Source of the DNA: an uncultured delta proteobacterium
GTDB taxonomy: Bacteria; Myxococcota_A; UBA9160; JAFDET01
Assembly: GCA_947259215.1 (NCBI GenBank)
Contig: CAMYLJ010000017.1
Location: 1 to 64,000 of the forward strand
Reading direction: 5' to 3'
Length of the DNA stretch: 64,000 nt
The notes under the pieces are model-generated. The model was not told the origin of the DNA. It did no database searches and saw only the letters and a program-made list of their open reading frames with translations. Position numbers and translations under genes: made by a program. Position 1 is the stretch's first letter, and every line of letters begins with the position of its first letter. Below, piece after piece: positions 2,866 through 32,175 of this stretch.

Positions 2866-3546
2866 GTGGGACAGAAAGTTCATCCCTACGGATTCCGGCT
2901 GGGCACCCTCTACGGGTGGCAGTCCAACTGGTTCGCGGAGCGCAACTACGGGCCCGCGCTGCATGAGGACCTGCGGATCCGGGAGTTCATCAAGAAGAAG
3001 CTCTATCACGCGGGGATCTCGCGGGTGGTGATCGAGCGCACTGGCGAGAAGCTGGTGGTCAACATCCACACGGCGCGCCCGGGCATCCTGATCGGCAAGC
3101 GGGGCGCCGAGGTCGAGAGCCTGCGCAAGGAGCTCTCGGGGTACTCGGACAAGGAGATCTTCATCAACATCAAGGAGATCCGGAAGGCCGAGCTGGACGC
3201 GCAGCTGGTGGCCGAGAACGTCGCCTTGCAGCTGGAGCGCCGGGTGGCGTTCCGCCGCGCCATGAAGAAGGCGGTGATCTCGACCATGAAGTTCGGCGCC
3301 GGCGGGATCCGCATCCAGTGTGCCGGCCGTCTGGGCGGCGCCGAGATGGGCCGCCGCGAGTGGTACCGCGAGGGCCGTGTGCCCCTGCACACGCTCCGCG
3401 CCCACGTCGACTACGGGTTCGCCCAGGCCAAGACCACGTACGGCGTGATCGGCGTGAAGTGCTGGGTCTTCAAGGGCGACGTCACGGACAGGGAGATGCG
3501 CACCGGCGCCCTGGCCGAGCGCTTCTCCGACGATCAGCCGAGGTAG
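2866..3546 (+). CDS. rpsC: 30S ribosomal protein uS3
   Basis: uS3 forms part of the mRNA entry channel and its helicase centre. The 226-residue product starts at GTG after a GGGCGGGAGA ribosome-binding stretch and begins with the invariant [15 protein letters not shown]-type domain includes [20 protein letters not shown], and the C-terminal domain has [26 protein letters not shown]. Length is normal, with a short DDQPR end instead of a long acidic tail. Confidence 0.97.
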
Positions 3547-27731: not shown

Positions 27732-27901
27732 CGCGCCGGGAGGCGAGCCGGGTTGCCGGCGATGTCCTCGCTCGCCGGACGCCAAGCTGTGCGTCGGGAG
27801 GCCGTTCTCCCGCCTCAGGGTTCGCCGGGTCGGCTTTCGCTTCGCGGATGCGGTGCTCTCCCTGCGGATTACGCCTGCAACCCGGCTCGCCTCCCGGCGC
27901 G
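27732..27901. repeat. Intergenic element bounded by a perfect 25-bp inverted repeat
   Basis: Left arm 27732-27756 (starting CGCGCCGGGAGGCGAGCC) is perfectly inverse-complementary to right arm 27877-27901. The arms bracket 120 bases that hold no plausible gene. The pair fills most of the carB-recG gap. Such an element could be a miniature inverted-repeat element, a REP-like repeat or a large structured RNA. No target-site duplication is obvious at the edges, and copies elsewhere cannot be judged from one window. Confidence 0.7.
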
Positions 27902-27936
27902 GGTCCAGTCTCCCCGTTCTGGCTAGGGTTGGGGGC

Positions 27937-30345
27937 ATGGCGGAGAGTCCGTTTGCCAGTGCGCTCGAGGCGGTGTTGGCGCCGTTGCGGTTTGCCGCGA
28001 AAGACGATTTTCGGGGGCTGGGCCGGCTTCGGGATCTCGAGGCCAGCGTGCGGGGGGCGGCGGAGCGGGCCGCGGCCCTGGCGATTCCCAGGGATGCGCG
28101 GCAGCGGTTCGAGCGGGTGGCGAAGGCGTTCGCCGGAGAGCTCGAGGACGACCGGCGGCGCGAGGCGGTGACGAAGGCGCTGGAGCAGCTGGCGCCGTTG
28201 GCGCAGCCGGGGTGGGCGGATGCCGCGCTGGCGCGGCCGTTGTCGGCGTTGCCCGGCGTCGGGCCGAAGCGGGCGGGGCAGTTGGAGCGGCGGGGGCTGT
28301 GGCGGGTGGCGGACGTGCTGTTCCGGCTGCCGGCGCGCTACGACGACCGGCGTGCGCTGGTGGCCGTGGACGCGCTCGAGGTCGGGCGCCGCGCCACCTT
28401 CGTGGCGAAGGTGCTGCTGGTGGACTTCGCGCCTGTGCGAGGTCGGGGCGGGCGGTTCCGGCGCATGCTTCAGGCCGTGGTGGGCGACGAGACCGGTACC
28501 GTGAACCTGAAGTGGTTCCGCGGCGGTGAGGCGCTGTCTTCGGTGGTGCAGAAGGGCGCGAGCCTGCTCGTGACGGGTGACGTGCGCCGCTACCGCTTCC
28601 AGAAGGAGCTGCTTCACCCCGAGGTGGAGCGGCTGGCGGACGACGCGGGCGACGAGCCGACGGCCGACCTGGAGGAGATCGTCGCCGACTACGCCACGCC
28701 CGAGGGGCTGCATCCGCGCGCGTTGCGGCGGCTGGTGGCGGCGGCGGTGGACGAGTACGCGGACCTGGTGGCGGGCTACCTGCCCGAGGCGCTGGCGCGC
28801 GAGCGCGCGCTCCCGCCGGCGGCGGCCGCGTTGCGCTCGCTGCACGCGCCGGGACCCGACGCGGACGTGGAGGCGTTGCGTCAGCGGCGTTCGCCCGCCC
28901 ACGAGCGCCTGGTGCTGGAGGAGCTCTACCTGCTCGAGCTGGGTCTCGCCCTGCGCCACGCCAGCGTGGCGGCCCAGCCCGGAATCGCGGTGACGGTGGA
29001 CGGGCCGCGTTCGCGCGCCGCTCCCGACGCCTTGCCGTTCCGCCTGACCGCCGCCCAGGGTCGCGCCTGGGGCGAGATCCGCGCCGACCTGGCGCGCCCG
29101 CACCCGATGAACCGGCTGCTCCAGGGCGACGTCGGGAGCGGCAAGACGGCGGTGGCCTTCCTGGCGGCCGTCGCCGTGGCCGAGAGCGGCCAGCAGGCCG
29201 CGCTGATGGCGCCCACCGAGCTGCTGGCGGAGCAGCACGCGCGCACCCTCGCGCGGCTCGTGGAGCAGGGCGGCGAGATCACCGCACTGCGCATGGCGCT
29301 CCTCACCTCCTCGATTCCGCGCGCGGAGGCCGACGCGCTGCGCGAGCGGCTCGCCGCCGGCGAGGTGGATCTCGTGGTCGGAACCCACGCGCTGGTGCAG
29401 CGCGACGTGCGCTTCGCGCGGCTGGCGCTGGCCATCGTCGACGAGCAGCACCGCTTCGGCGTGCTCCAGCGCCGCGCCCTGACCGACAAGACCGAGGGCG
29501 GGAGGGCGCCGGACGTGCTCGTCATGACCGCGACTCCGATCCCCCGCACCCTGGCGCTCACCGTCTACGGCGATCTCGATCTCTCGGTCCTGGACGAGCT
29601 GCCGCCCGGACGCACGCCGGTCACGACCGAGATCATGCGCGAAGGGGAGGGCCGCCGGGTGCGCGACCTGGTGCGCGCCACCACCGCCCGCGGCGAGCAG
29701 GTCTACGTGGTCTACCCGCTGGTGGAGGAGTCCGAGAAGCTCGACCTGCGCGCCGCCGTCGAGTCCGCCGAGCGGATCGCGGCGGCCTTTCCCGAGCGCA
29801 GGGTGGACCTGGTGCACGGCCGCCTCGACGCCGCGGCCCGCGCCGAGGCCATGGCCCGCTTCGAGCGCGGCGAGACCCACATCCTGGTCTCGACCAGCGT
29901 GATCGAGGTCGGCGTGGACGTCGCGAACGCCACCCTGATGGTGGTCGAGCACGCCGAGCGCTTCGGCCTGGCGCAGCTGCACCAGCTCCGCGGCCGCGTG
30001 GGACGCGGCACGCGCCCCGGAACCTGCGTGCTGGTGGCGCGGGGCGGCGGCGAGGACAGCGAGGCGCGCCTGGCCGCCATGCTCGAGACCAGCGACGGCT
30101 TCCGCATCGCCGACGCCGACCTCCAGATCCGCGGCCCGGGCGAGTTCCTCGGCACTCGCCAGCACGGCCGGCTGCCAGAGTTGCGCCTGGCGGACCTGGT
30201 GCGCGACGCGCGCCTCGTCTCCGTGGCGCGGGAGGCGGCCCTGGCCCGCGTCCGCAAGGACCCCGGGCTCAGCCGGGAGCCTGCCGTGCGGCGGGCCGTC
30301 GAGGTACGCTGGGGCGACCGCCTGGCCCTGGCCGACGTGGGCTGA
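27937..30345 (+). CDS. recG: ATP-dependent DNA helicase RecG
   Basis: RecG remodels stalled forks and branched DNA. The 802-residue product has an N-terminal helical region, then the wedge/OB domain (LSALPGVGPKRAGQLERRGLWRVADVLFRLPARYDDR). SF2 motifs follow: Walker A LLQGDVGSGKTAVAF, motif II DEQHRFGVLQRRAL, motif III MTATPIPRTLALTVYGDLDLSVLDELPPGRTPV, and motifs V-VI with STSVIEVGVDVANATLMVVEHAERFGLAQLHQLRGRVGRG. ATG at 27937 is chosen over an in-frame ATG at 27853, which falls inside the inverted-repeat element. Confidence 0.95.
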   Translation: MAESPFASALEAVLAPLRFAAKDDFRGLGRLRDLEASVRGAAERAAALAIPRDARQRFERVAKAFAGELEDDRRREAVTKALEQLAPLAQPGWADAALARPLSALPGVGPKRAGQLERRGLWRVADVLFRLPARYDDRRALVAVDALEVGRRATFVAKVLLVDFAPVRGRGGRFRRMLQAVVGDETGTVNLKWFRGGEALSSVVQKGASLLVTGDVRRYRFQKELLHPEVERLADDAGDEPTADLEEIVADYATPEGLHPRALRRLVAAAVDEYADLVAGYLPEALARERALPPAAAALRSLHAPGPDADVEALRQRRSPAHERLVLEELYLLELGLALRHASVAAQPGIAVTVDGPRSRAAPDALPFRLTAAQGRAWGEIRADLARPHPMNRLLQGDVGSGKTAVAFLAAVAVAESGQQAALMAPTELLAEQHARTLARLVEQGGEITALRMALLTSSIPRAEADALRERLAAGEVDLVVGTHALVQRDVRFARLALAIVDEQHRFGVLQRRALTDKTEGGRAPDVLVMTATPIPRTLALTVYGDLDLSVLDELPPGRTPVTTEIMREGEGRRVRDLVRATTARGEQVYVVYPLVEESEKLDLRAAVESAERIAAAFPERRVDLVHGRLDAAARAEAMARFERGETHILVSTSVIEVGVDVANATLMVVEHAERFGLAQLHQLRGRVGRGTRPGTCVLVARGGGEDSEARLAAMLETSDGFRIADADLQIRGPGEFLGTRQHGRLPELRLADLVRDARLVSVAREAALARVRKDPGLSREPAVRRAVEVRWGDRLALADVG

Positions 30346-30380: not shown

Positions 30381-30611
30381 GTGACGGTCACCATCCACTA
30401 CTGCGGGCGCTGAAACTACCTGCCCCGGGCCTCGAGTCTCGAGGCCGCGATCAAGAGCGAGCTCGACCTCGACGTCGAGCTCATCCGCGGCGACGACGGC
30501 ATCTTCGACGTCGCCCTCGACGGGCGGGGCGTCTTCTCCAAGCACGAGGCCGGGCGCTTCCCCGAGGAGTCCGAGGCGCTGGCGCTGCTGCGGGAGGCGG
30601 CGGGCGGCTAG
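30381..30611 (+). CDS. SelW-like CxxU selenoprotein (in-frame TGA at 30411-30413)
   Basis: Read from GTG at 30381, behind a GAGGGGAGG site, the frame encodes MTVTIHYCGR, then TGA, then NYLPRASSLEAAIKSELDLDVELI, IFDVALDGRGVFSKHEAGRFPEESEALALL and TAG. With Sec at codon 11, this is the CxxU redox motif of the SelW/SelT/SelH (Rdx) family: a YCGxU loop, then a helix, and later the GxxVFSK segment. Length is 76 residues. A SECIS-like hairpin lies just after the TGA. Rdx proteins are thioredoxin-fold redox proteins of uncertain substrate. The gene follows recG by 35 nt and ends 13 nt before the convergent TPP-enzyme gene. Standard gene finders would miss it. Confidence 0.88.
30428..30446 (+). promoter_or_regulatory. 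Bacterial SECIS hairpin of the SelW-like gene
   Basis: GGCCTCGA (30428-30435) pairs perfectly with TCGAGGCC (30439-30446) around the loop GTC (or the 7-bp stem with loop AGTCT). The apical G at 30436 lies about 22 bases after the TGA. This fits the bacterial SECIS rule of a short stem-loop with a loop guanine some 16-37 bases downstream of UGA, recognised by SelB. The stem is coding sequence (PRASSLEAA). Confidence 0.75.
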
Positions 30612-30624
30612 CAGGCGCCGTCAG

Positions 30625-32175
30625 CTAGATCACCGCCTCCACCAGGTGCGGCCCCGGCTCTGCGAAGGCGCGCTCCAGCGCCGTCACCAGCGCCTCGCCG
30701 GTCTCGGCGCGCTCGCCAGGCACGCCGAAGCCGCGCGCGAGCGCCACCCAGTCGAGCTCCGGCCGTGACAGGTCCGTCAGCGACGCCGCCTGCGGTCCCG
30801 GCTCCGCGACGCCCGCACGCGCCAGCTCGAACTGCAGGATGCGGTAGGCGCGGTTGGAGCAGATCAGATTCGTGACGTTCAGGCCCTCGCGCGCCTGGGT
30901 CCACAGCGCCTGCACGGTGTAGAGCCCGCCGCCGTCGGCCTGGAAGGCGACGACGGGGCGGTCGGGGCACGCGACGGCGGCGCCGGTGGCGACCGGCAGC
31001 CCCTGGCCGATGGCGCCACCGGTGAGGGTCAGCAGGGTGTGGGGCGGGAGGCCGGCGGCCAGGTTGAAGTAGGGGCCCCCACTGGTCGCGGCCTCCTCCA
31101 TCACGATCGCGCCTTCGGGCTGGGTTGCCGCCAGCGCGGCGCCGAGCGTCGGGGGATCGAGGGCGCCCGTCGGCCGTGCAGGGATGCTCGCTTCGGCCGC
31201 GGCTCCGCGCGCGGGCGCAGCGAGCGCATCCGCCAGCGCTGCGAGGGCGGCGGCCGCGTCCTCGCGCGGATCCGCCAGGGTCTCGGCGCGGCACCCGTCC
31301 GGCACGAGTCGGCTCGGGAGATCGGGGTAGGCGAAGAAGGCCACCGGCTCCGGCGCGCCCGCCATGACCAGTACCTCGACGTTCTCCAGCGCCTGGAGCG
31401 CGTGCTCCGGAAAGTACGGCAGGCGTTCGACGGCGGGCAGACCGGCGCCGCGCTCGACGCGTGCGGGGAAGGTCTCGCAGAAGAGCCGGCAGCCCGTCGC
31501 GGCGGCGACCCGTCCGGCCGCCGCCAGCCCCTCAGCGCGCGACGCACCCGCACCGAGCAGGAGCGCCGACGTGCGACTTCCGCGCAGCGCGGTTGCCACG
31601 CGCTCCACGATCTCGTTCGCCACCGGCGCCGCCGGCGTGACCGCGCGCGGCGGCGCCGTTGCGTCGGTCGTAGCCGCGGAGAGATCGCTCGGCACCACCA
31701 GGGTGGCGACCCGACCCGGCGGCTCCAGCGCCACCGCGATGGCCTCGGCCACGTCGGCGGGGAGCTCCTTGGCCTGGCTGCTGCGACGGAACCAGTCGGA
31801 GACCGGCCGCGCCAGGGACTCGATGTCCGAGGTGAGCGGCGCGTCGTAGGGCAGGTGGCGGTCCGGATGGTCGCCGACGAGGTTCACCACCGGCGCCCGC
31901 GCGCGGCGCGCGTTGTGCAGGTTGGCGATGCCGTTGGCGAAGCCCGGGCCGTGGTGGAGCAGGGTGAGGGCCGGGGCGCCGGCCAGCCGGCCGAAGCCGT
32001 CGGCGGCGCCCGTCGCCACGCCCTCGAAGGTGCACAGGATGGCGCGGACCGCGTCCACCCGATCGAGCGCGGCCACCAGCGCCATCTCCGAGGTGCCGGG
32101 ATTCGCGAAGCAGACCCGGGCCCCGGCCGCGGCGGCGGTGCGCAGCAGGGCTTCGGCGCCGGTCGAGGGGGGCAT
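30625..32175 (-). CDS. Thiamine-diphosphate enzyme, acetolactate synthase / benzoylformate decarboxylase-like
   Basis: The 516-residue product has three TPP-enzyme domains. The N-terminal pyrimidine-binding domain has the activating Glu in [19 protein letters not shown], and a central domain follows. The C-terminal PP-binding domain has [42 protein letters not shown] and the Asn of CSNRAYRIL completing the metal motif. It resembles the stand-alone IlvB-like subgroup (MdlC-related), not biosynthetic ilvB, since no ilvN or ilvC is nearby. The substrate is unknown. It is transcribed opposite to recG and divergently from hppA. Confidence 0.82.

Follow-up and report, generated by a model that had tools for sequence, protein, structure and literature searches.

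A SelW-like selenoprotein gene split by an in-frame TGA codon in an uncultured delta proteobacterium

The reading frame at positions 30381 to 30611 of the DNA analysed here (64,000 nucleotides, in the following called the window) is, with a probability of about 97%, a SelW-like selenoprotein gene of the Rdx family, in which the UGA codon at 30411 is read as selenocysteine by means of a SECIS element and SelB. This supports the initial annotation, which had proposed a SelW-like selenoprotein from the letters of the window. Computation established the reading frame and its family, the conserved TGA and hairpin, the presence of the Sec machinery in the genome, and the predicted fold. The features of the locus, which we call selW, are compiled in Table 1.

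Table 1. Positions of selW, its sequence elements and the adjacent genes in the window.
Feature	Position	Strand	Remarks
SelW-like (Rdx, CxxU) selenoprotein gene	30381..30611	+	76 codons and TAG stop
Probable ribosome-binding site, purine-rich GAGGGGAGGAA	30366..30376	+	inferred from reading the sequence
Redox motif C8-G-R-U11 (CxxU), TGC GGG CGC TGA	30402..30413	+	translation
TGA codon predicted to be read as selenocysteine	30411..30413	+	TGA in 87/97 homologous genes
SECIS hairpin	30428..30446	+	stem 30428-30434 / 30440-30446, loop AGTCT 30435-30439
recG helicase gene, upstream, 35 nt before selW start	27853..30345	+	Pfam RecG domains
Thiamine pyrophosphate enzyme gene, convergent	30625..32175	-	Pfam TPP_enzyme_N and TPP_enzyme_C

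The stop-split frame between recG and the gene for a thiamine pyrophosphate enzyme was found exactly as annotated, with a GTG start at 30381, a single in-frame TGA at 30411-30413 and a TAG stop at 30609-30611. Translation with the TGA as selenocysteine yields the YCGRU sequence that had been proposed as the CxxU motif. Under the standard bacterial code translation ends at codon 11, and ordinary gene calling therefore overlooks or shortens the gene. The examined flanks of the SelW genes of relatives did not contain recG, and a thiamine pyrophosphate enzyme was located beside SelW in only one relative (L024 and L053, apparently one contig); we therefore claim no functional link of selW to its neighbours.

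For scoring against family models the TGA codon was translated as cysteine. An alignment of the frame with the Rdx families, which the initial annotation had suggested as a check, gave scores above both curated cut-offs: 63.2 bits for Pfam Rdx (PF10262; cut-off 22.6) and 53.6 bits for TIGR02174 CXXU_selWTH (cut-off 34.2). The Rdx match spans the TGA and is far above chance. The top-scoring family model was NF041051 SelTWH_Campy with 79.9 bits, but this is below its curated cut-off of 88 and the product was therefore not assigned to this equivalog. When all six frames of the entire genome were searched with the Rdx model, the selW locus was the sole match above the cut-off, with one TGA inside, and no cysteine copy of the gene was seen in the assembly. 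Among 44 aligned sequences the columns 8 and 11 are always occupied by Cys or Sec, and residues behind the TGA are strongly conserved, with A17, L34, G37, G40 and P61 invariant. The ratio dN/dS for the part 3' of the TGA, calculated for eight pairs with the window sequence, stays under 1 without being very low (about 0.4-0.7); possibly the constraint of the hairpin on synonymous changes contributes to these moderate values.

An AlphaFold model calculated with the 44 window and locus sequences as input (pLDDT 93.7, pTM 0.80) displays the thioredoxin-like SelW/Rdx fold with the element order E-H-E-E-E-H-H. The best fold matches in the PDB are the bacterial SelW-related structures 2FA8, 2OJL, 2OBK, 3DEX, 2OKA and 2P0G, with TM scores of 0.83-0.94 by query length. 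MIEN1/C17orf37 (2LJK, TM 0.79) and mammalian SELENOW (2NPB, the mouse protein, TM 0.66) come next; both share the Rdx fold, although the match is weaker. By sequence, MIEN1 is the top PDB match (E 6.8e-8).

Of 379 genomes sampled from the phylum, 194 (about half) contain a relative of selW, and most of the better-scoring relatives, nearly all of the best ones, have one or two TGA codons inside. In a further collection the near relatives are labelled as Myxococcota or Deltaproteobacteria, and the farther ones as Planctomycetota, Thermoanaerobaculia, Zixibacteria, Bacillota and other groups; a phage collection contained no relative of selW. Reading of 97 homologous genes revealed TGA at codon 11 in 87, a cysteine codon in 9 and CGA in one, and all 87 TGA forms run in full length to a later stop. 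The in-frame UGA is thus conserved at the redox position in 87 relatives. Close relatives with a different frame and neither Cys nor Sec, which according to the initial annotation would speak against a selenoprotein, were not encountered: frame and TGA are kept, with the CGA form in a distant relative as the one exception. This form (L065, positions 2995-3198, from a Bacillota MAG) carries an arginine codon at the Sec position in front of an intact SECIS-like hairpin. Recoding of CGA by an altered tRNA-Sec is not supported, because the tRNA-Sec of this genome has the normal anticodon TCA; a point change to arginine or an assembly error is the likeliest explanation. Many relatives (L026, L029, L043, L044, L081 and others) terminate their SelW gene with TGA, so that the same codon appears as Sec codon and as stop within one gene.

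The stem with an apical G described in the initial annotation is present as 8 bp around GTC or, read alternatively, as 7 bp (GGCCTCG/CGAGGCC) around AGTCT. The loop, with a G inside, lies 21-22 nt past the TGA. In the bSECIS model, bacterial SECIS elements have a small loop with a G at a distance of 16-37 nt after the UGA, and the selW hairpin has this layout, with a loop distance of 21 nt, a loop G in 87 of 87 Sec forms and covariation of the stem. A search of the locus against Rfam at a loose threshold retrieved no SECIS family; the four matches that came up score far below the gathering thresholds of their models and are regarded as random. Within the window, 51 of the 1,071 TGA triplets (5%) are followed by a hairpin of 8 bp or longer in the same distance range with a G in the loop, and the folding energy of the selW hairpin stretch is ordinary (z = -0.76). 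The hairpin of the window alone is therefore weak evidence, and the case for a selenoprotein is carried by the comparison across relatives.

The 87 Sec sequences used for this comparison align over 54 nt, counted from the TGA, with no gap, and base pairing was evaluated on the 86 distinct sequences. Offsets are counted from the T of the TGA (window position = 30411 + offset). Each of the pairs 18-34, 19-33, 20-32, 22-30 and 23-29 exists in 94-100% of the sequences. Pair 17-35 is present in 86%, and in the middle of the stem 21-31 is mismatched in many relatives but paired in the window. Position 20-32 occurs as CG, TA, GC, TG or GT, and position 23-29 as CG in 80 sequences and GC in 6, including the window, and both are paired in every case. 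Overall 96.7% of the core pairs are formed versus 90.4% after shuffling of columns (maximum of 1,000 shuffles: 91.9%), a difference that is inflated by the kinship of the sequences, and only 19-58% when the partners are slid. Less exposed to kinship are the repeated compensatory changes on both sides of the stem, which fall on third codon positions and are synonymous; one of these is found in the window. Where the loop encodes serine, the codon is always AGT (70 of 70); elsewhere AGT is rare and accounts for 7 of 269 serine codons in the same genes and for 6 of 149 in five genes of the window. All six core pairs are present in 75 of the 87 Sec forms versus one to four of six in the cysteine homologues. 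The family match across the TGA and its conservation together with the hairpin in 87 relatives are far above chance.

All four genes of the Sec pathway, which the initial annotation had implied and proposed to search for, are present in the draft genome (5.7 Mb, 128 contigs, 96% complete). We identified selA (505.5 bits), selB (269.5 bits, cut-off 242; 649 amino acids with SelB winged-helix domains), selD (323.6 bits) and selC in the form of a tRNA-Sec (73.7 bits, gathering score 47) with the anticodon TCA according to ARAGORN. A lack of selB or selC, named beforehand as a possible refutation, can thus be dismissed. The selD gene itself (L007, 1501-2427, G000:C5) contains a TGA at 1531 within GGUARK, and a frame of the AhpC/TSA family located just before it (L007, 809-1369) reads FGUPYCR with a TGA at 941. 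Together with selW at least three genes of this genome consequently look like selenoprotein genes. In 80 genomes of the same order, 60 have the TGA form of SelW, 7 only a cysteine form and 13 neither. Among the 60 genomes with the TGA form all but one (59) have selA, compared with 16 of the remaining 20 (Fisher p = 0.013); the genomes are draft assemblies and, owing to shared ancestry, not independent. The genome with the TGA form but no selA match (G187) is 85% complete.

A single base exchange converts TGC or TGT into TGA, and in a draft genome of 128 contigs one might suspect a nonsense mutation or a sequencing error in a cysteine-type Rdx gene whose 3' part is a relic. This is very improbable, as 87 relatives share the TGA at this codon and continue beyond it into a full-length conserved protein, the hairpin covaries, and the entire Sec machinery is available; the conserved TGA and hairpin in practice refute a decayed gene. 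A comparably small chance is left for a selenium-dependent switch, in which translation would mostly stop at the UGA and the frame would sense the supply of selenocysteine without any need for the protein. Partial read-through of UGA, which is the general rule for the bacterial SECIS route, would suit such a switch, but the conserved residues past the TGA argue that the full protein is under selection. Least probable of all is decoding of the TGA as tryptophan, cysteine or some other residue through a changed code or ordinary suppression, since TGA ends recG (30343-30345) and the SelW genes of many relatives and is thus a stop elsewhere, and tRNA-Sec, SelB and hairpin are all present.

For the selenoprotein reading we infer, from established bacterial Sec biology, that selenocysteine is inserted at UGA 30411 in the following way. 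The ribosome would start at GTG 30381. SelD would supply selenophosphate and SelA would synthesize Sec-tRNA-Sec, which SelB bound to the hairpin at 30428-30446 would deliver to the UGA. With the UGA read as selenocysteine, translation would continue to the UAG at 30609 and release a thioredoxin-like protein of 76 residues with the CxxU pair at the end of the first strand. This pair most likely cycles between a selenolate-thiol and a selenenylsulfide bond, with the product acting as a small thioredoxin-like CxxU thiol/selenol oxidoreductase.

Bacterial SelW-like proteins have been known for about twenty years and are among the commonest selenoprotein families of bacteria in the literature. The described members (PF10262, TIGR02174; PMC1088965, PMC1794560, PMC2398784) belong to the same family as selW, with a CxxU motif in which Sec is the second residue, and likewise have a SECIS element just past the UGA with a G in a small apical loop, whereas the eukaryotic SECIS is located in the 3'-UTR (PMC1088965). 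We found no difference in kind between these proteins and selW, which represents another lineage. The Global Ocean Sampling (GOS) set contained 427 SelW-like genes (PMC2398784), members from Deltaproteobacteria such as Geobacter sulfurreducens and Desulfotalea psychrophila have been reported (PMC1794560), and recent reviews also cover the family (PMC9312934, PMC13188914). According to PMC1088965 it is unclear what SelW-like proteins do, with CXXU suggesting a redox role, and our functional inference goes no further than this. The gene is in this sense ordinary but easily missed, and its finding leaves the knowledge of Sec insertion unchanged. In the open-access literature searched we found no paper that joins selenoprotein, selenocysteine and Myxococcota; since, in addition, about half of the sampled genomes of the phylum contain a relative, with TGA in most of the better-scoring ones, this widespread redox gene is likely to be under-annotated in Myxococcota. 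The relatives also provide a clean collection of naturally covarying SECIS variants.

The cysteine forms sampled in the phylum differ from selW. Eight of the nine (L109-L116) belong to a separate type of paralogue with the sequence CRWLLRA and a longer C-terminus, mostly without the hairpin; they can be likened to 3DEX, which has CRWLPRA. In some genomes, for example G159, G293 and G338, a paralogue of this type occurs together with the Sec form. Close orthologues of SelW in the phylum have nearly all Sec, the loop RGUYU is near-invariant, and cysteine is found mainly in these separate paralogues. Sec may therefore be fixed in the SelW of this phylum, perhaps as the original and required residue and not as a late replacement, a suggestion that we regard as tentative and somewhat less probable than its opposite. 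The ninth cysteine form (L108, positions 289-761, genome G129) is part of a tandem of SelW-like genes, one with the cysteine motif YCKPC and a mostly lost hairpin and the other with YCREU and the hairpin kept, and this tandem offers a natural Sec/Cys pair for comparison.
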